Shown: piece by piece, positions 14,540-56,784 of the stretch
Position numbering within the stretch: position 1 is the first letter of the stretch
Layout: each line of letters begins with the position of its first letter
Virus record (IMG/VR): IMGVR_UViG_3300036857_000203
Location: 1 to 64,000 of that record
Source: a virus
Length of the DNA: 64,000 nt
Reading direction: 5' to 3' (one strand)
Notes under the pieces: model-generated
Databases searched by the model: none
Told to the model about the DNA's origin: nothing
The model's input: only the letters and a program-made list of their open reading frames with translations
Position numbers and translations under genes: made by a program

Positions 14540-14972
14540 GCAGCATTGCCTCGATCTCATCACGCAGTTGCTTGCGCGTAATCCCTGGCATGATTTCTTC
14601 GATGATCACGTTGGTGATCTTCTCCGTCAGAAGGCGGAGCTGTTCGTCGCTGATTCGCGTCAGGCTCTTACCCTTGGCCTCGATCTTACGTGTGTGTGGA
14701 TCGTAGATCGCTTTGCTGTAGCCGACACGCACCTTGAACGCTTCCATGGCATGATCCTTGTCGAGAAATTCGTCCGAATTGTTTGCAACAAGATGAACGA
14801 GAGCCCAAAGATACCGTAGCAACTGGATGTTCTTCTCACGTCTGATGGTGGCAGTCACATCGCTGTCCATGGAGATGATATGCAGGTCCTCTTCCGCCAT
14901 TTCAGAGGACGGAAACAATCCGACCTCACCACGATAGTGGGCACGACGCTTTCGAAGAAAGGTTTCGATCAC
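14523..14972 (-). CDS. DUF1367-like phage protein
   Basis: 149 residues from GTG 14972, chosen because AAGGAGG lies 8 bases upstream. The frame runs further up into the GCC repeat but that part is low-complexity. Features are LRYLWALVHLVANN, a KVRVG segment and GKSLTRISDEQLRLLTEKI, which fit the layout of DUF1367 proteins found beside phage recombination genes. Assignment by pattern only. Confidence 0.6.
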   Translation of the reverse strand: MIETFLRKRRAHYRGEVGLFPSSEMAEEDLHIISMDSDVTATIRREKNIQLLRYLWALVHLVANNSDEFLDKDHAMEAFKVRVGYSKAIYDPHTRKIEAKGKSLTRISDEQLRLLTEKITNVIIEEIMPGITRKQLRDEIEAMLRERTA

Positions 14973-14984
14973 GTCGCGCCCCTC

Positions 14985-15065
14985 CTTGCCTGCCTCACCT
15001 CGCCGAGCCAAGCCACACCGAGGCCTGTCTTGCCGTGACGAGCCAAGCCGAGCCGAGCCGCGCCA
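14985..15065. repeat. GCCNN pentanucleotide repeat island (short copy)
   Basis: Between the ERF gene and the next leftward gene the + strand reads as repeated gcc/NN units (for example agccaagccgagccgagccg). This is the same 5-base rhythm as the large island at 23.6 kb. In the leftward transcript it appears as GGCNN. It falls in a gap and directly precedes the GTG 14972 ribosome site. Confidence 0.6.
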
Positions 15066-21086: not shown

Positions 21087-21384
21087 CGAATTATTCGACT
21101 CTGACAAGCTCATCGCATGGCTGCGCCAGCAGCCGCCCGACGAGGAATACACCTGGAGCGATCCGGTGTTCTGCCTGATGGGGCGCTACGTCACCGACGT
21201 GGGGAGGCCCAAAGACCTCTACGGCTATAGCGACATGCCGCACTATCACGAGATTGCCGAGACCAAGCCGCACACGTTCGGAGCAGCGCTCCAGCGGGCC
21301 GAGGCACTCAAGGCGCTGCCGGCACCCGCGCTGCAGATCGAGGACAAGAGCCGCGAGCTGGTGACGGTGGAAGCGGCGGGATGA
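21079..21384 (+). CDS. Hypothetical small protein
   Basis: 101 residues from ATG 21079 with AGGAGG 6 bases upstream; the frame is open to 21019 but that stretch overlaps the previous gene. Begins MPSELFDSDKLIAWLRQQPP. Helical ends around a central segment with WSDPVFCLMGRYV. Coupled to the HNH gene by a 4-base overlap. Confidence 0.6.
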   Translation: MPSELFDSDKLIAWLRQQPPDEEYTWSDPVFCLMGRYVTDVGRPKDLYGYSDMPHYHEIAETKPHTFGAALQRAEALKALPAPALQIEDKSRELVTVEAAG

Positions 21385-21860
21385 ACTTCTGGGCGGACCT
21401 TCAGTACGAACCGGAAACCGGTAAGTTCTACCGGCTGAAGTCCGCTCGCAGCGTGAAGGCTGGAGATGAGGCTGGTTGCCTGAACCCCTCAACTCAGTAT
21501 TGGATCATCCGCGTCGGAGGGAGAAGTTATCGCCGTGGGCGATTGGCATGGCTTTATATGACCGGTCGCTGGCCGATCGCGCAGATTGATCACATCAATG
21601 GGGTAAAGACTGATGACCGGATCGAGAATCTCCGAGAGGCGACTAATTCACAGAACGCCTTAAACAAACGACGGACACGCCAGAACACATCAGGTTTCAA
21701 GGGCGTCACTTGGCATAAACGCACTCGCCGCTGGCATGCTCAGATCAACATCGGCGGCAAGAATAAGTACATCGGTAGTTTCCGGTCTCCCGAGGAGGCC
21801 CATGACGCTTATTGGCGGGCTGCGCAGGATGGTCACGGTGCGTTTGGGAGGAAAGAGTGA
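21381..21860 (+). CDS. HNH homing-type endonuclease with AP2-like C-terminus (copy 1)
   Basis: 159 residues. IAQIDHINGVKTDDRIENLR carries the HNH core (DH...N...N), followed by EATNSQNALNK. The C-terminal 55 residues (NTSGFKGVTWHKRTRRWHAQ, KYIGSFRSPEEAHDAYWRAA) match an AP2-like DNA-binding module. Such genes move between phages as free-standing homing nucleases. It is the paralogue of the gene at 56302. It is wedged between two coupled genes, and the helicase GTG overlaps its stop. Confidence 0.85.
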   Translation: MNFWADLQYEPETGKFYRLKSARSVKAGDEAGCLNPSTQYWIIRVGGRSYRRGRLAWLYMTGRWPIAQIDHINGVKTDDRIENLREATNSQNALNKRRTRQNTSGFKGVTWHKRTRRWHAQINIGGKNKYIGSFRSPEEAHDAYWRAAQDGHGAFGRKE

Positions 21861-23467
21861 AGGAACTCAGACCTTACCAAGAAGACGCCCTCCAGGCGAT
21901 CCGGCAGACGGTAGGCCAGGGGGTGAAACGTCTCGTGTGTCAATCACCTACTGGGTCAGGCAAGACGTTGCTCGCGGCAACGATCGTTGACGGCGCGCTG
22001 CGCAAGGGCAACCGGCTGTGTTTCACGGTGCCGGCGATCGACCTTGTCGATCAGACCGTGGAGATGTTCTACGCCCAGGGCATCAAGGACGTCGGCGTCA
22101 TCCAGGCTGACCACCGGATGACCAACTGGCAGATGCCAATCCAAGTCGCGAGCATCCAGACTATCCGCTCGCGCGGAATCTATCCCGAGGCCCAGGTCGT
22201 CGTCATTGACGAGTGCCACCAGTTGCACAAGGCGCACGTCAAGTGGTTGAGCGATCCTGACTGGCAAGCAGTGCCGTTCATCGGGCTCAGTGCAACTCCC
22301 TGGACGCGCGGCCTCGGGAAGCACTTCTCGTCCTTATTGGTGATGTCTACGACGAAAGAGCTGATCGAGGAGGGGTACTTATCCAGGTTCCGGGTGTTTG
22401 CGGCGGATCATCCTGATCTGAGCAATGTTCCGACCATGGGCAAGACCGGCGATTACAAGGAAGCGCCGCTGTCCACCGTGATGAGCCAGCAGCAGCTGAT
22501 GGCGAACGTGATCGAGACCTGGAGGGTGCGCCACAACGCTGACAAGACGCTGTGCTTCGCAGTTGATCGTGCGCACGCGAAGTCGCTGCAAGAGCGCTTC
22601 CTCGACGCTGGCATCTCATGCGCGTACCAGGACGCCAACACACCGAGCGCAGAGCGTGCAGAGATCAAGAGGAGATTCCATAGTGGAGATTATCGTGTGG
22701 TTTGCAGTGTCGGAACATTGTGCACGGGCGTCGACTGGGACGTCAGATGTCTCGTCTTGGCAAGGCCGACGAAGAGCGAAATGCTTTACGTGCAAATCAT
22801 TGGTCGAGGCTTACGAACGGCTGAGGGCAAGACTCACCTGCTTGTTCTCGATCACACGTCCACAACGGAGCGGCTCGGGCTGGTGACCGACGTTCACCAC
22901 GATAGCTTGTCGATGGGCAAGCTCGATGAGAATAAGGCTGCTCCGCGTAAGCCGCCGCTGCCTCGACCCTGTCCGCAGTGCAGCTGCCTGATGGCGGTCG
23001 GTGTACGAGTCTGCGAGGAGTGCGGCTTCGAGCGCAAGATCGTGTCGAAGGTCACCGAGAGAGACGGTCAGCTGGTGGAGTTCGATGGGACGTTTCGCAA
23101 GAAGGGCAAGACTGATCCCAAGTTGCTGCCGTATTCGTTCGCGGAGAAGATCAAATACTTTCAGCAGCTGCGCGGCTATGAGGTAATGCGTGGCTATCGG
23201 AAAGGTTGGGCCGCGAATCAATTCCGGGAGAAGTTCAATGAAGGCTGGCCCCCGTGGTCCTGGAACGATCTCGCACCAATGGCGCCCGGCCCCGAAGTCA
23301 CGTCCTGGATCAAATCCCGACTCATTGCATGGGCACAGAGTAAAGCTCGAACTGCTAGCGCTGCAGCTGGCACTCCACGGTCCGACAGCGGTAACACCCA
23401 GCGCAGTTCGTATTCTGGCGCGAAGCCCGCTGTGGCTGGAGACGAGACTACTCCTCCGTGGGAGTAA
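21857..23467 (+). CDS. DEAD-like superfamily 2 helicase
   Basis: 536 residues from GTG 21857 with a GGGAGGAAAG ribosome site. Motifs: LRPYQ (Q-like) at 4-8, Walker A SPTGSGKT about 30-37, DECH at 118-121, SAT in GLSATPW near 143, and motif VI QIIGRGLRT near 313. Two CxxC pairs (CPQC, then CEEC) form a zinc-binding knuckle around residues 372-395. The layout matches phage DEAD/RES-III type helicases of about 500 residues that unwind DNA in replication or recombination. It is the only obvious replication enzyme in the window. Confidence 0.88.
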   Translation: MKELRPYQEDALQAIRQTVGQGVKRLVCQSPTGSGKTLLAATIVDGALRKGNRLCFTVPAIDLVDQTVEMFYAQGIKDVGVIQADHRMTNWQMPIQVASIQTIRSRGIYPEAQVVVIDECHQLHKAHVKWLSDPDWQAVPFIGLSATPWTRGLGKHFSSLLVMSTTKELIEEGYLSRFRVFAADHPDLSNVPTMGKTGDYKEAPLSTVMSQQQLMANVIETWRVRHNADKTLCFAVDRAHAKSLQERFLDAGISCAYQDANTPSAERAEIKRRFHSGDYRVVCSVGTLCTGVDWDVRCLVLARPTKSEMLYVQIIGRGLRTAEGKTHLLVLDHTSTTERLGLVTDVHHDSLSMGKLDENKAAPRKPPLPRPCPQCSCLMAVGVRVCEECGFERKIVSKVTERDGQLVEFDGTFRKKGKTDPKLLPYSFAEKIKYFQQLRGYEVMRGYRKGWAANQFREKFNEGWPPWSWNDLAPMAPGPEVTSWIKSRLIAWAQSKARTASAAAGTPRSDSGNTQRSSYSGAKPAVAGDETTPPWE

Positions 23468-23541: not shown

Positions 23542-23580
23542 TCCGTCAGTTACGACAGCGGGTGATAGCCCACCGTCGCA

Positions 23581-24147
23581 GGCTGGAGGCTAAGCCTGCC
23601 AAGCCCGGCCAGGACTGAACGCACCAAGCCAAGCCCGGCCCTGCCTTGCCTCGCCTCGCCAAGCCCTAGCTAGCCGGGCCAGGACTGCCACGCCAAGCCA
23701 AGCCCTGTCAGGTCCTGGCGTGCCGTGCCTTGCCGTGCCGTGCCTGCCGGGCCAAGCCGTGCCTGTCCGAGGCCTGCCGCGTCTTGCCGGGCCTAGCCCT
23801 GCCGGGCCTGCCGCGACATGCCGCGTCTTGTCAGGTCGGGACATGCCGGGCCATACCGCGCCCGCCTTGCCTCAACTGCCGCGACATGCCGAGCCTGGAC
23901 CTGCCATGTCCAGCCGTCCGAGCCGGGCCAATGCCACGCCTGCCGAGCCAAGCCAGCGTCGGGCCAAGGCATGCCGTGACATGTCATCCACGTAGATGAC
24001 GTGCCTGCCATGCCCCGCCTTGCCGCGCACCGCCGGGCCGAGCCTCGCCGGGCCAAGCCCCGCCGCACCGGGCCTGCCGGGCCGCGCCATGCCGAGCCAC
24101 GTCCCACCGGGACGCGCCACGCCAAGCCGCGCCGAGCCTGCGTTACC
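23581..24147. repeat. Large GCCNN pentanucleotide repeat island
   Basis: About 565 bases between convergent genes in which gcc recurs every 5 bases with the other two positions variable (gccaa, gcccg, gccag, gccgt, gcctt). Five-base units shift the reading frame every repeat, so all frames give similar Pro/Cys/Ala/Arg-rich nonsense and no frame is gene-like. A small inverted repeat (GTCATC-CACGTA-GATGAC, 23983-24000) interrupts it. The rest of the gap, 23542-23580, holds nothing I recognise. Confidence 0.75.
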
Positions 24148-24160
24148 GTGCCTAAGACTT

Positions 24161-24691
24161 CTACCGTTGGGCCGCAGCCCTCGGTCTCTCCCCCGGCCGC
24201 CGACGCGGCGGCTGCGGGCGAGATGGCGGTTTCTTCTCGTCGTCTTTGCCAAGCTCATTCACGATGCTGTCGAGCCGGGCGTAGAACTCGCTTTCCAGTT
24301 TGGTTGTTCGCGCATGACCATGTGCATCGACCAGCAAGTTGCGGACTCGATCCATGAGCACTGCCAGGATGCGCGAGTTCTTCTCCTTCGTTGCACTCGC
24401 AACATCGACGTACGTGCCGACCGCCGACCTGGGATCGGGGTCGTGCCGATATCGCGGAAGCACGCGCGAGAGATCGATGTCGTTGATCTCGGGACGGGGA
24501 CAGCTACGGATGATCTCCTCGGCACGCGCCAAGAGATACCTTCGATGAACTCGCGCCGGGTCCCAATCGAACAACTTGTTCAACTCGCTGTTCTGATCCC
24601 TCCCCGCCTCCACGACATCGCGTGCGTTGATCGTGCCGTTACCGTCGCGCAGCTCATCGAGTGCGGTGATCTGCTCGGTCGTAAGATTCAT
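24161..24691 (-). CDS. Hypothetical soluble protein
   Basis: 176 residues, mostly helical, with LNKLFDWDPARVHRRYLLAR and DRVRNLLVDAHGHARTTKLE. The tail is Pro/Arg-rich and disordered. It overlaps the preceding gene by 4 bases and shares its promoter at 25.5 kb. No family name known to me. Confidence 0.65.
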   Translation of the reverse strand: MNLTTEQITALDELRDGNGTINARDVVEAGRDQNSELNKLFDWDPARVHRRYLLARAEEIIRSCPRPEINDIDLSRVLPRYRHDPDPRSAVGTYVDVASATKEKNSRILAVLMDRVRNLLVDAHGHARTTKLESEFYARLDSIVNELGKDDEKKPPSRPQPPRRRPGERPRAAAQR

Positions 24692-25506
24692 GTGCTCGCT
24701 CCTGGTTGCTCGGGTTGATCGCTTGAACGAGAGCGCGTTACGGGATCGCGCCGCCGCATCACCTCAGCGTCGTACCAGCCCAGCAAGTCGGCGCTCTCTT
24801 CGTCAGCGAACGATGGATCATCGAGCGCTGCGAGCTGTGCCTCGCGCCCCTCTTTCTCGACAATGTCCATCCATTCGGGATGATCGTGGCTCACGACATC
24901 CCAGGAGCCGAAAGAGAATGCGCCGCGTTCCTGGCGCCCGTCGCCGACACCGACAATCATGCCGGCGTTCATCGCTAGATTGAGCACGTCGTCGAGCGTG
25001 ATCAGGTCGCGCACATAGCGAAAGCTCATGGAGCACGCCCAGCGCGGGAAGTAGGCGCGCGTGCGGATGTCGGGCGTCTTGGCGATGCCGGCCTGCCGCA
25101 CCATCGACATGTGCAGCTGCGGGATGCCGTACAGGAAGATCGTCGGCGTGGTTACGGTAATGAGCCGGCCCACTTCCGCTCGTGTTGCGCCCGGCGTGTC
25201 GACTGCCGCCTGGGCGAGCGCTTTCTTGATGCTGTTGCCGGGGAGGTGGACGGCGGCTGGCGCATCGGCGTCGCGGCAGCGATAGACCGAGGCGCGGAAC
25301 TCTTCGAGCGGATCGTGCTTGAGGGTGGCTGCGCGTGCTGCCCGGTTGGGAGCGCGTGGGGGGAGGAGTATCTGGCGCTTCGCCTTCTCGGTGAAGCGGT
25401 TCATCACGAGCGCGCTTGTGCCCAGGAGATGGAGAGTCGCGCCCACCATCTGCAATCGACTGATGAGCGGGCGCTCCGCACCAGTCTGCTTTGCCGCTTT
25501 CGCCAT
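24688..25506 (-). CDS. Phage protein with glycine-rich GVGD motif, function unknown
   Basis: 272 residues. It opens with LQMVGATLHLLGTSALVMNR and FTEKAKRQILLPP, has LPGNSIKKALAQAAVD in the middle, then ACSMSFRYVRDLITLDDVLN and MIVGVGDGRQERGAFSFGSW. I recall the same order (xGTxPLxxxRF...FPAxAFKKA...GVGxWRPE...GxFG) in unrelated phages near recombination genes. The late glycine-rich loop is reminiscent of RAMP/Cas7-type folds, but that is speculation. First gene of a two-gene leftward unit, directly opposite the Cro-like gene. Confidence 0.7.
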   Translation of the reverse strand: MAKAAKQTGAERPLISRLQMVGATLHLLGTSALVMNRFTEKAKRQILLPPRAPNRAARAATLKHDPLEEFRASVYRCRDADAPAAVHLPGNSIKKALAQAAVDTPGATRAEVGRLITVTTPTIFLYGIPQLHMSMVRQAGIAKTPDIRTRAYFPRWACSMSFRYVRDLITLDDVLNLAMNAGMIVGVGDGRQERGAFSFGSWDVVSHDHPEWMDIVEKEGREAQLAALDDPSFADEESADLLGWYDAEVMRRRDPVTRSRSSDQPEQPGAST

Positions 25507-25507
25507 A

Positions 25508-25536
25508 TTGAGGGTTCCTGTGATCGAGTGTATATA
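25508..25536 (+). promoter_or_regulatory. Rightward promoter of Cro-like switch
   Basis: TTGAGG (25508-25513), 17 bases, TATATA (25531-25536), about 45 bases before ATG 25583. Confidence 0.55.
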
Positions 25537-25558
25537 GAACAGGCGGATGCCTATCCAA
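25531..25558 (-). promoter_or_regulatory. Leftward promoter sharing the same TATATA box
   Basis: On the minus strand TTGGAT (25558-25553), 16 bases, TATATA (25536-25531). The -10 box is self-complementary and used by both directions, so polymerase can occupy only one promoter at a time. Confidence 0.5.
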
Positions 25559-25582
25559 CGCAGACTATATCAGGAAACTACG

Positions 25583-25792
25583 ATGCACAAGCGGGAAGAG
25601 TCGGCGAACCTGAACGAGGGACTACGCGCCGCGATCGACGCTTGCGGTTCGCGCTATGCCCTGGCCAAGCGGCTCGGCCTGACACCGGTAGCAGTGCTTG
25701 ATTGGTGGCGCATCCCGGCGGACTTGGTGGTCGAGGTGGAGAGAGTATCGGGCGTGCCCCGCGAGAGGCTACGCCCGGAGCTGTACTACTAA
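25583..25792 (+). CDS. Cro/YdaS-like helix-turn-helix regulator
   Basis: 69 residues from ATG 25583 (AGGA upstream). LRAAIDACGSRYALAKRLGL followed by TPVAVLDWWRIPADLVVEVE is the YdaS/Cro helix-turn-helix pattern, ending GVPRERLRPELYY as is typical for this group. It is the single rightward gene in a leftward region and faces divergent overlapping promoters, the classic layout of a Cro-type repressor. Its stop overlaps the stop of the convergent gene. Confidence 0.8.
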   Translation: MHKREESANLNEGLRAAIDACGSRYALAKRLGLTPVAVLDWWRIPADLVVEVERVSGVPRERLRPELYY

Positions 25793-26337
25793 CGCCCGCG
25801 CAGGAAGCGCTCAGCCTCGCGACCGGTGAGCGGCGGCTTGCGCAGCTTGCCGGTCAGCGCGGCTTGCTTGTGCTCCTCACGCACCCTACGCTTCTCCTTC
25901 TCCACGAGCCGCCTCTGCTCGACAGTGGGAGCTTTGTTGTGACTGTTAGCGACGGCGTAGGCCGCCTCAGCGACATCCTTGGCGAGAGGGCTCCGCTTGA
26001 GATAGGTGGGAATCTCAAGCTCATCCAGCTGACCAGCAAGTGGTTTGTCGCCGGGCTTCTCCTGCACGACGGGCGCGTCGTTAACGTCGCTCCGATCCTC
26101 GGCTACATGCACGGCTGGACCCGGCAGCGGGTCCTTCGCTACGCCCGCATCCGGCACTGGACGGCCACAGAGCTTTGAAGCTTGCCGCAGCCTAAGCCGG
26201 TCGAGCGTCTTGCGCAGACCAGGAAGCTTGACCTCGGCATTCACCAGGGCCGCGAGCGCGCCGTTGCGTTGCATCTCCAGGCGAGCGACTTGGGCACGCA
26301 GAAGGCGGATGTCTCTTTGGAGCTTTGTCTCTTTCAT
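25789..26337 (-). CDS. Coiled-coil N-terminal hypothetical protein
   Basis: 182 residues from ATG 26337; an in-frame ATG 15 bases earlier belongs to the ATGAAAGG leader. The first 70 residues form a coiled coil (LLRAQVARLEMQRNGALAAL). The C-terminal half is basic, with VEQRRLVEKEKRRVREEHKQ. Own promoter at 26371-26399. Function unknown. Confidence 0.65.
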   Translation of the reverse strand: MKETKLQRDIRLLRAQVARLEMQRNGALAALVNAEVKLPGLRKTLDRLRLRQASKLCGRPVPDAGVAKDPLPGPAVHVAEDRSDVNDAPVVQEKPGDKPLAGQLDELEIPTYLKRSPLAKDVAEAAYAVANSHNKAPTVEQRRLVEKEKRRVREEHKQAALTGKLRKPPLTGREAERFLRGR

Positions 26338-33548: not shown

Positions 33549-33615
33549 GATGGCAAGGCAAGGCGCGGCAGGGCACGGCCCGGCGATACAGGGCTGGGCC
33601 CGGCACGGCGCGCCT
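33549..33615. repeat. GCCNN pentanucleotide repeat island (opposite orientation)
   Basis: On the + strand ggcaaggcaaggcgcggcag and onward repeats ggc every 5 bases, i.e. GCCNN on the minus strand. It lies between two leftward genes, directly upstream of the leader of the 33516 gene. Same family as the islands at 15.0 and 23.6 kb but flipped. Confidence 0.6.
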
Positions 33616-33625
33616 CGGGGGGGGG

Positions 33626-34336
33626 TCATGCCCCCTCCCCAATATCGAGCTTGTCTTCACCCCAGGGCAGGCCATAGCGGACGGCGCAGGCCTTGCCGTA
33701 GCCTACTGCGAGGCTCTTCTTGGCGGTGGGGCTGTCGCCGCCCAGGGCAAGGTTGCAGAACACGCAGCGGCCGGTGAGCGTGGCGCTCTCCTTGGCGACC
33801 TTGGCCGGCTCGCAGGCGAACTCACGCAGGCGCTTGGCGATGGCCTCGGTGCGACCGTTGGCAACGCGCGCCGGCTGATACTGCCCATCGACCGTTACGC
33901 GGCCCAGCCACACGCGGCGCGGGCCCCAGTCGCCTTCCTCGAAGACGTCATTGTCCTTCACATCGATGCTGCCGGGGACCTTCGCCTTGGCGCTGGCGAT
34001 CGAGAGGCGAACGACGGTGTCGGCCTCGGGGACGGCCAGGGTGATGGCGGGCTTCTTGAGGCTGACCTTGGCGCGGTCGAACAACTGCAACACGCCGCCC
34101 AGGTCGCCAACGGCTTGAATGGCCTGCGCGGGCTTGGCCTGGGGCGCTAGCGACCAGACCTGATCGCCGTAGCGGTTCTTGCCCTGGTAGGTACCCAGGG
34201 TGACTTCCTGGGTGCGGCCGTCGCGCTTGTAGACGATGACGGTGCCACCGGGCTCGGCGTTGGCGGCCTTGTCCTCGGGGATGCGAACGCCCCAGGTGGT
34301 GGCGTCGAGCTTCACGTAGGAGGTCGGGAAAGACAT
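33626..34336 (-). CDS. DUF6011-like zinc-binding protein
   Basis: 236 residues from ATG 34336 (leader ATGAAAGGCCACTGAAC). The C-terminal 45 residues, GRCVFCNLALGG then SLAVGYGKACAVRYGLPWG, carry the CxxC...GYGxxC pattern of DUF6011. The rest is strand-rich (TVIVYKRDGRTQEVTLGTYQ). Probably a small nucleic-acid or protein-binding zinc fold. First gene of the long leftward block. Confidence 0.7.
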   Translation of the reverse strand: MSFPTSYVKLDATTWGVRIPEDKAANAEPGGTVIVYKRDGRTQEVTLGTYQGKNRYGDQVWSLAPQAKPAQAIQAVGDLGGVLQLFDRAKVSLKKPAITLAVPEADTVVRLSIASAKAKVPGSIDVKDNDVFEEGDWGPRRVWLGRVTVDGQYQPARVANGRTEAIAKRLREFACEPAKVAKESATLTGRCVFCNLALGGDSPTAKKSLAVGYGKACAVRYGLPWGEDKLDIGEGA

Positions 34337-34377
34337 GTTCAGTGGCCTTTCATGGGTGAGAGCGACAACGGGATACA

Positions 34378-34404
34378 CGTATAGCACCGCAATGCATCTG
34401 TCAA
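34378..34404 (-). promoter_or_regulatory. Possible leftward promoter
   Basis: On the minus strand TTGACA (34404-34399) with TATACG (34383-34378) 15 bases away, a short spacer. The following leader, ...CTCACCCATGAAAGG, is like those after the other promoters. Confidence 0.45.
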
Positions 34405-34958
34405 TGGGTGGATTACGGTAATCGTCGCTGCGGTGCAGCAATAAGTTCCTGGGTGGGGATAGTGGGGATAGCGCGCAAAGGGCTTCCCGAATCAGACGCA
34501 ATCGCTTAAACGCATCAAGCCCCACAAGGATCGCTCCCTGCAGGGCTTGGTTTATGTCCGCGAGCTTGGTCGGCGCTCGGACACAAGGTCTGAAACACAA
34601 GACCTTGTACTCCGCCCCCCGACCAACAGCAAGCGGTAGATGCGCTCGATGGAACGCGACCATCGAGGCGGTGCGCTCTCAACGTTGCCGGAACCGCACC
34701 TTCCGGCACGCTAGCGGAGCATTGGCGGTGCCTCGCGCGCGCGTGCGCGGCAGCGGATATCTGGAGAGAAAGAGAGGGGTCTACCGAGTAGAGCACTATC
34801 TCTCACACTCACTGTTACCTTTGGATAGAACAGAAAGGTTCTTAGTAATTAGAAAGAATCTTTCTAGAACATCTAAGGAAGATAGGAAGAGGAGAGAATG
34901 GTGGTAAGGCACTAGAGGGGCAGAACCGGGTTGTAACAACTGAGTGGATACTGCCACG
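34405..34958. other. Non-coding divergent region with Z-DNA-like and AT-rich segments
   Basis: No convincing gene on either strand. It contains an alternating purine-pyrimidine run (GCGCGCGCGTGCGCG near 34735), then an AT-rich stretch (34795-34890) that stands out from the GC-rich surroundings. Nested inverted repeats at 34838-34870 (GTTCT...TAGAAAG-AAT-CTTTCTA...GAAC) lie inside it. The area between the leftward block and the rightward small-gene block is a candidate for promoters or an origin. Confidence 0.5.
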
Positions 34959-37078: not shown

Positions 37079-37394
37079 TCCATAAGGGATATTCGGCGAA
37101 GTTCCCGTTCTGCCCATATCCTTACCCACACCCCAGGTCGCGACCCCACCCCAGCGCCGTTACCGTAATCCATTGATATTACGGGAGAACCGCGCGCCGC
37201 GCCACGCAGCCCCAGGGCAGGGCGCCCGGGCCCCCGAGGGGGGGTGGGGGGGGCGGCACAGAGAGCAGCTCATGGCTCAGGCCCCTCCCCCAAATCCCTC
37301 GCATTTCTCGGTCCCCGACCCACAACCAACTGATCTTACTATGATTTCGTCCGGGTTGCGCAGCAGACCCCCGGCCTTATTTCTGCGTACCTCC
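37079..37394. other. Intergenic stretch with homopolymer G/C runs
   Basis: No gene identified. GTTACCGTAATCC followed by ATTACGGGAG (37158-37183) forms a loose inverted repeat, and GC runs (cccgggcccccgaggggggg near 37226-37250) can fold. I see nothing else. Confidence 0.4.
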
Positions 37395-55582: not shown

Positions 55583-56305
55583 ATGACGGCTGGGACCAAC
55601 ACCAGCAGGAGCTACAACTTCGCGCCCTCGCTCGCCGATGTGGTGATCACGGCCTATGGCCGTTGCCAGATCAGGCGCAGCGCCATCACGCCCGAGCATC
55701 TGCACGATGCCGCCATGGAGGCGAACCTGCTGCAGAGCGAGTGGTCGAACAACCAAGTCAACCTCTGGACCGTGGACTTGCAGAGCATCCCGCTGGTGCC
55801 CGGGAAAGCCAAGTACGACGTAGACCCAGCCACCGTGATGATCCTTGGTAGCTACATCGCAACTGGCAGCTCGCCCGAGAAGGATAGGCTCATCACCTCG
55901 CTCGACCGCGACACCTACGCGGCGTTCCCAGACAAGACTACGCCGGGTACTCCGAGCCAGTACTGGTACGATGCACAGATACTGCCGACAATCACGCTCT
56001 GGCAGCCGCCCGATGACATCGAGCCGCGCTGGCTGAAGTTCTATCGCGCGCGGCAGATACAGGATGCGCTCTTGCCCGATGGCCTGGAGCCAGAGGTGCC
56101 TTATCGGTTTCTCGACGCCTACGTCGGAGGTCTGGCGTGGCGGTTGGCTGTGCACTACGCGCCGGCCATGGCGGACAGCTTGAAGACGTTGGCCAAAGAA
56201 GCGTTTGATACCGCGAAGAACCGTGACGTCGAGAAGAGTTCACTACGCATCGTGCCGGCCATGTCGATATACACGAATGCGGTTTATTCCAAGGAGGATC
56301 GATGA
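55583..56305 (+). CDS. Head-tail connector / tail accessory protein
   Basis: 240 residues. AYGRCQIRRSAITPEHLHDA, LLQSEWSNNQVNLWTVDLQS, LDAYVGGLAWRLAVHYAPAM: the pattern fits P22 gp4-like or adaptor proteins, whose alpha-helical domain binds the portal. Follows coat genes and precedes fibre genes, as expected for a neck protein. Confidence 0.72.
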   Translation: MTAGTNTSRSYNFAPSLADVVITAYGRCQIRRSAITPEHLHDAAMEANLLQSEWSNNQVNLWTVDLQSIPLVPGKAKYDVDPATVMILGSYIATGSSPEKDRLITSLDRDTYAAFPDKTTPGTPSQYWYDAQILPTITLWQPPDDIEPRWLKFYRARQIQDALLPDGLEPEVPYRFLDAYVGGLAWRLAVHYAPAMADSLKTLAKEAFDTAKNRDVEKSSLRIVPAMSIYTNAVYSKEDR

Positions 56306-56784
56306 CGCCAGCTGAGGTTCGCGAGCTGTTTGATTACGATGCCAGCACAGGTGAGCTGCGCTGGCGTGGCGGGCGTAGGGCTGGTGGCATCGCTGGCATG
56401 GTGAACAAGGCCGGATACCGGGTGGTGTGGGGCAGGGGTGGCAAGGAATCGCGGAAGATGTTCTTAGCGCACCGCTTGATCTGGCTGTGGGTTTACGGTG
56501 AATGGCCGACTAAGATCGATCACATCAGCGGCGATAAGGCGGACAACCGGCTCGCCAATCTGCGACAGGCCACAAACTCCGGTAACAGCGCTAACTCAAG
56601 ACTTCAGGCCCGGAGTAAGAGCGGCTTCAAGGGCGTGTGGCGGCACGGGCCGGGTTGGGCAGCGAGCATCCGCAAGGACAATGTGACCCGTCACTTGGGC
56701 ACCTTTCCTACACCAGAGCTGGCATACGCTGCTTACTGCAGGGCCGCTGATTCGCTTCATGGTGAGTTCGCGAGGTTCGTGTGA
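56302..56784 (+). CDS. HNH homing-type endonuclease with AP2-like C-terminus (copy 2)
   Basis: 160 residues. RLIWLWVYGEWPTKIDHISG, NRLANLRQATNSGNSANSRL and SKSGFKGVWRHGPGWAASIR, RHLGTFPTPELAYAAYCRAA match the 21381 gene along its length. The DH and N residues of the HNH core are present. It interrupts the neck-protein region and couples to both neighbours. Confidence 0.85.
   Translation: MTPAEVRELFDYDASTGELRWRGGRRAGGIAGMVNKAGYRVVWGRGGKESRKMFLAHRLIWLWVYGEWPTKIDHISGDKADNRLANLRQATNSGNSANSRLQARSKSGFKGVWRHGPGWAASIRKDNVTRHLGTFPTPELAYAAYCRAADSLHGEFARFV

Follow-up and report, generated by a model that had tools for sequence, protein, structure and literature searches.

What is an island of viral DNA in which GCC recurs every five bases while the intervening pairs vary? 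Such an island lies at positions 23581-24147 of the window analyzed here, which is 64 kb of the 72,435-bp IMG/VR virus record IMGVR_UViG_3300036857_000203. We are highly confident that it is an array encoding the guide RNAs (vrRNAs) of a VIPR (Viral Interference Programmable Repeat) system that the phage carries. Judged from sequence, the locus shows the protein and RNA anatomy that VIPR requires, and three of its guides match the helicase, NinB and phrog_4046 genes of relatives under a code in which one base is skipped between guide pairs (skip 1).

VIPR is a CRISPR-like (clustered regularly interspaced short palindromic repeats) weapon of phages against one another, described in a preprint (PMC13142463). 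The system consists of a RAMP-type protein, Vipr, and vrRNA guides of 9-16 YNNGG repeats with a fixed GGY and a hypervariable NN; the target, in double-stranded DNA, is given by the NN pairs with one base skipped between them (PMC13142463). In the SUSP1 locus two genes are flanked by one vrRNA upstream and three downstream, and the SUSP1 vrRNAs are said to carry a structured 3' tail; array architecture differs by VIPR type (PMC13142463). The same source mentions 'staggered arrays with overlapping vrRNAs' (fig. S18). A first-pass annotation of the window could name no standard phage element like it, which was true until this preprint appeared in April 2026.

The five-base periodicity that this annotation described is real. 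Self-identity at lags 5, 10 and 15 is 0.534, 0.512 and 0.495 in 23581-24147, against 0.261, 0.258 and 0.300 in the whole window, and the best 100-nt joint periodicity score is 0.617, with control lags reaching at most 0.49. The repeat proper spans about 23596-24138 on the minus strand, where the units read GGYNN: the plus-strand unit GCCNN there takes the form GGCNN, i.e. the GGY/NN repeat of vrRNAs. As first reported, the island occupies the gap between convergent genes (a helicase ending at 23467 on the plus strand and a Vap-like gene ending at 24161 on the minus strand) and contains an inverted repeat, GTCATC-N6-GATGAC. Two smaller islands of the same type, which that annotation had missed, are present in the window. 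Segmentation and run finding gave the following layout.

23596-24138, minus strand: main vrRNA array, head-to-tail GGYNN runs, several of them joined by a 1-nt overlap at a GGCAG/GC junction
24074-24138, minus strand: vrRNA A, 13 units (12 guide NN plus AG)
24005-24074, minus strand: vrRNA B, 14 units
23983-24000, minus strand: perfect inverted repeat (hairpin) directly 3' of vrRNA B, 7-bp stem in the RNA fold
23809-24004, minus strand: degenerate stretch within the array, with broken GGY units plus the hairpin
23744-23808, minus strand: vrRNA F, 13 units
23685-23744, minus strand: vrRNA G, 12 units
23596-23680, minus strand: vrRNA H, 17 units
23551-23580, minus strand: strong hairpin after the last vrRNA (RNA fold, region z = -2.8)
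14990-15064, minus strand: orphan vrRNA 1, 15 units ending GGCAG, between ERF and NinB-like genes
33552-33611, plus strand: orphan vrRNA 3, 12 units, beside gene 33626-34663

Run lengths in the window are thus 12, 13, 13, 14 and 15 units, plus one of 17, the published vrRNA range being 9-16. GGCAG closes several runs, and its final G is at the same time the first base of the run that follows; such neighboring vrRNAs share one base. Overlaps of one base were found in 105 cases across loci, and the GGCAG junction marks about 30 loci, the window included; arrays built in this way may be the 'staggered' VIPR type. Hairpins come after vrRNA B, vrRNA H and orphan 3, and no tail is common to the units. 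The hairpin at 23551-23580 is, from its predicted fold, a possible terminator or tail; the longer stretch around the 23983-24000 hairpin has an unexceptional folding energy (z near 0). The degenerate part possibly consists of decayed guides. An Rfam search of the window and 17 other array loci returned no match, hammerhead ribozymes included.

Is there a Vipr to go with the array? Two overlapping genes adjoin it.

24688-25506, minus strand: vipr, 272 aa, RAMP-fold protein with a G-loop, phrog_4652
24161-24691, minus strand: candidate Vap, 176 aa, with homologues adjoining vipr in many VIPR loci

A profile of 55 relatives of the vipr product matched PDB entry 36pp ('SUSP1 Vipr protein') with E = 3.9e-40, and profile-sequence comparison with SUSP1 Vipr gave a probability of 99.9. 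Pairwise BLASTP against the SUSP1 protein taken as Vipr was weak but significant (E = 1e-6 over the G-loop region). That protein was assigned by position, a scan for runs having recovered two SUSP1 genes with one GGYNN run upstream and three downstream, and it was taken as Vipr because this layout agrees with the published one (PMC13142463). The AlphaFold model of the window protein has a mean pLDDT of 84.7; in Foldseek all 33 matches with E<=0.001 were CRISPR RAMP complexes or their subunits (Csm, type VII, Cmr6); TM-scores were modest, at about 0.3-0.5. The 55 relatives all belong to phrog_4652, a PHROGs family of unknown function that could, on these comparisons, be annotated as Vipr. The candidate Vap is a conserved overlapping neighbor of vipr in many loci, and no known fold was found for it. 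Searches of Pfam, NCBIfam and PADLOC assigned neither gene to a family.

What do the guides specify? Seven were decoded and scored, at skips of 0-3, against five records of related phages, with NN order shuffled for comparison. Outliers appeared with skip 1 alone; skips 0, 2 and 3 gave no excess. One of these records is a sister phage (G001, IMGVR_UViG_3300037153_000392), which is colinear with the window at about 65-95% DNA identity (BLASTN). With skip 1, vrRNA H matched its helicase at 26/32 positions, orphan 1 its NinB-like gene at 23/28, and orphan 3 its phrog_4046 gene, the orthologue of 33626-34663, at 22/24; for each of these guides, none of 1500 shuffles equalled the score. Scores were also raised in a second record, G002 (vrRNA H 23, orphan 1 23, orphan 3 20), and the best match of vrRNA H was the helicase of L304 (27/32). 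When patterns were run against all of IMG/VR, that of vrRNA H found four contigs, all four hits being helicases of related phages, and that of orphan 3 found a single contig, the sister. Both patterns were partly relaxed at known mismatches. As they were built to accept the mismatches of the sister, her presence among the hits is not independent evidence; the exclusivity of the hits is.

Three further assignments are weaker: vipr for vrRNA A, a DUF5681 gene for vrRNA B and family-A DNA polymerases for vrRNA F. Among all sequences compared, the best three matches of vrRNA A lie at one homologous site in vipr: that of the phage itself at 25175 (20/24) and those of L276 and L091 (19/24 each). With the same sequences, 20 was also attained by one of 12 shuffles, and the score is by itself not decisive. 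vrRNA B had one IMG/VR match, in a DUF5681-type gene with the motif PGESGNPAG (L306, 23/26), and reached 18/26 in a related phage (L287, 853-1338). The exact 12-unit pattern of vrRNA F had no match; in relaxed form it matched seven contigs, all encoding family-A DNA polymerase with the motif GKVxELALGYLG, at 20-22 of 24 positions.

The first-pass annotation had proposed looking for the pattern elsewhere. When viral contigs were searched for the DNA repeat alone (eight GCCNN units), at least 120 stretches contained it. Within the stretch examined, a vipr homologue is present in 84 of the 120 repeat-selected loci listed versus 1 of 27 loci selected by the neighboring helicase, and this one (L023) is also the sole member of the 27 with arrays. 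Among GGYNN runs within 3 kb of vipr, 464/474 share its strand. Most units across loci are GGC or GGT, and run lengths peak at 8-14 units. The NN positions are mostly highly variable; spacer entropy is typically 3-3.8 of 4 bits in degenerate islands. Vipr homologues with adjoining runs occur in Gordonia phages Pipp (L277), ODay (L278) and UmaThurman (L281), Pseudomonas phage LESphi2 (L279) and cyanophage Cy-LDV1 (L280). Like structure in isolate phages (SUSP1, the Gordonia phages, LESphi2) and in about 100 separate viral contigs excludes in practice the assembly artefact that the first-pass annotation had allowed for. Of the loci found by a scan of genome contigs with an 11-unit pattern, few had a vipr homologue (5/120 among the matches listed).

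Some of these loci deserve separate mention. Pipp, ODay, UmaThurman, LESphi2 and Cy-LDV1 are candidates for the decoding of vrRNA targets; their Vipr homologues are hypothetical proteins. About 36 of the 120 listed repeat loci have no vipr homologue in the stretch examined (e.g. L101, L039, L035), and some of these are simple repeats. Long variable arrays lacking a detected vipr, such as the 68-unit array of L101, may have a more distant Vipr or be orphan arrays.

Could the array instead be a protein-bound DNA element, i.e. iterons, a partition centromere or a recombination site organized on helical repeats? Its spacing of 5 bp is regular, two units come close to one helical turn, and it is intergenic in a phage. 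A DNA-binding array and a replication site were indeed two of three possibilities raised at first reading. Both founder on the strand match to vipr (464/474 runs) and on NN matches that appear with skip 1 only, which they leave unexplained. Furthermore, the units are grouped into runs of about 8-14, a size that suits an RNA, the NN decode to genes of relatives, and the conserved neighbor is a RAMP, not Rep or ParB. We consider a DNA element very unlikely. The third possibility, a structured RNA, was right in direction; the evidence points to a guide RNA whose NN encode a target.

Still less probable, to the point that we give it hardly any weight, is a functionless simple-sequence repeat produced by slippage. 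GC-rich pentameric tandem repeats can arise in this way, and part of the array is degenerate. Against this, the variable positions are near random (3-3.8 of 4 bits) while GGY is fixed, in many viruses the islands accompany one particular gene, and guide-target matches lie far beyond those of shuffles.

As to coding, the statement that no frame through the island can be coding was too strong. Reading frames across it are largely open and several open reading frames (ORFs) of at least 80 aa run through it, so its non-coding status rests on other evidence. A coding repeat was dismissed in view of the strand locking, the spacer entropy and the decoded targets.

Several observations weigh against a VIPR assignment. 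Without the family profile, which the strong values require, the window protein matches 36pp at no better than E = 0.02, and the candidate Vap has no similarity to SUSP1 Vap1 in profile comparison. No perfect target was found, the best matches being 22/24 and 27/32; the phage actually aimed at may be outside the collection. For vrRNA G no target was found, and no guide decoded from the degenerate part (23809-24004) could be given a target with confidence. In the sister genome vrRNAs A, B and F score no higher than shuffles; their assignments rest on the wider searches, and the patterns for B and F were relaxed around a motif recognized beforehand in the decoded guide, which favors such genes. 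Finally, when 70 random guides were decoded against all loci then gathered, no excess was seen at any skip in this database, which was too small and made up of unrelated loci.

Homology with the published system suggests the following mechanism. The minus strand would be transcribed into vrRNAs of about 12-17 GGYNN units, and Vipr, a Cas7-like RAMP, would coat them. The NN pairs, with one base skipped between them, would base-pair to double-stranded DNA and prevent the target gene from being expressed. The phage would suppress competing relatives in the same cell and would itself be spared because its own alleles are mismatched to the guides. Which alleles are these? Four guides have a corresponding site in the phage's own genome.

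23129-23176, plus strand: own site for vrRNA H, in the helicase, orthologous to the target and mismatched (own helicase 21/32)
14749-14790, plus strand: own site for orphan 1, in the NinB-like gene, orthologous to the target and mismatched (19/28)
34080-34115, plus strand: own site for orphan 3, in gene 33626-34663, orthologous to the target and mismatched (18/24)
25175-25210, plus strand: own site for vrRNA A, in vipr (20/24)

At all four sites the NN fall on codon positions 1 and 2, making the skipped base the wobble position. The 3,997 guide dinucleotides likewise fit codon positions 1 and 2 best, a moderate effect (Kullback-Leibler divergence 0.11 bits versus 0.17 and 0.38). All four guides are encoded close to the phage's allele of the gene that they target, at a distance of about 0.2-1 kb; guide and resistant allele would thus be co-inherited.

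These sites also raise the question whether the guides serve self-regulation, tuning the phage's own vipr, helicase, NinB and phrog_4046 genes, above all vipr by vrRNA A. This guide matches its own vipr better than any other sequence compared, and all four (A, H, orphan 1 and orphan 3) partly match a neighboring own gene in frame. However, relatives outmatch the phage itself for vrRNA H (26-27 vs 21), orphan 1 (23 vs 19) and orphan 3 (22 vs 18), and the own-genome scores are by themselves near shuffle level. Self-regulation is improbable, though it has a better claim than a DNA element or slippage.

Returning to guides aimed at relatives, is the placement of a guide beside the own allele peculiar to this phage? 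When 366 guides from all VIPR loci were compared with nearby own genes, z exceeded 3 in 7 cases for codon phase 1,2 versus 2 and 1 for the other phases, a small excess that comes in part from the window itself. Outside the window, two guides of L130 and guides of L209 and L123 pass this threshold, which L096 narrowly misses. The arrangement is seen for 4/7 window guides and, in unrelated VIPR loci, twice in L130, in L209 and L096, and possibly in L123; these matches are suggestive of such placement in other VIPR loci too. In-frame partial matches in an adjoining gene are found at L130:11454-11592, L209:3500-3569 and L096:5835-5899. We tentatively propose, while rating it at somewhat below an even chance, that guides are set beside the own allele of the gene attacked in relatives and that guide and resistant allele travel together, which would amount to a programmable marker exclusion driving the phage's own alleles through recombining relatives.

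The sister phage also bears on how the locus was acquired.

23555-25798, no strand assigned: cassette of 2.2 kb comprising the array, vap, vipr and a small plus-strand ORF (25547-25792)

This segment corresponds to about 45 bp in the sister, and no array was found in her whole 49,918-bp record. The orphan 1 site likewise occupies about 35 bp in the sister versus about 175 in the window. By this alignment the cassette is an insertion. The annotated phage collection contained no near relative of the window at megablast sensitivity.

Other features of the window include a G-rich stretch at 37189-37311 with weak 5-periodicity, near the 37-kb GC-skew peak, which is not a GGYNN run. The ORFs 21381-21860 and 56302-56784 resemble, as judged by eye, HNH/AP2-type homing endonucleases.

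The window provides independent, sequence-only support, in a phage unrelated to those studied, for a VIPR anatomy and 1-nt skip code that were known from a single preprint. It names testable targets, and ties both a common unexplained repeat of viral contigs and the unannotated phrog_4652 to VIPR. If placement of guides beside the own allele proves general, it suggests how VIPR systems avoid self-targeting and why they are kept.

How does the locus compare with known systems? It is most like type II VIPR (Escherichia phage SUSP1, a Pseudomonas fulva prophage; PMC13142463), with which it shares phage encoding, a RAMP-fold Vipr homologue with a small gene next to it, GGY/NN vrRNAs on the same strand as vipr, the 1-nt skip code and, probably, targets in competing phages. 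It differs from SUSP1, whose four separated vrRNAs have a structured 3' tail, in its continuous array with 1-nt-overlap GGCAG junctions and without a shared tail, in its orphan vrRNAs 9 kb off, and in a Vap candidate unrelated to SUSP1 Vap1 by profile comparison. Its overlapping runs possibly represent the same architecture as the staggered type that the preprint mentions (PMC13142463). Class 1 CRISPR-Cas systems, with their Cas7/Csm3 RAMP effectors, share the RAMP fold and a guide RNA with a periodic break in pairing, but the unit here is 5 nt with two variable bases, rather than direct repeats with unique spacers of about 30 nt, and the guide is non-contiguous; no cas genes were found in the scanned neighborhood of the array. 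Phage homing endonucleases and marker exclusion offer a parallel of another kind: there a weapon is encoded beside the resistant allele of the locus that it attacks in a rival. The linkage seen in the window resembles these in logic only, with RNA guides and probably repression instead of cutting. The kind of system is known; new are the targets decoded in close relatives, guides that lie as orphans at a distance from vipr, and the linkage between guides and the phage's own alleles.
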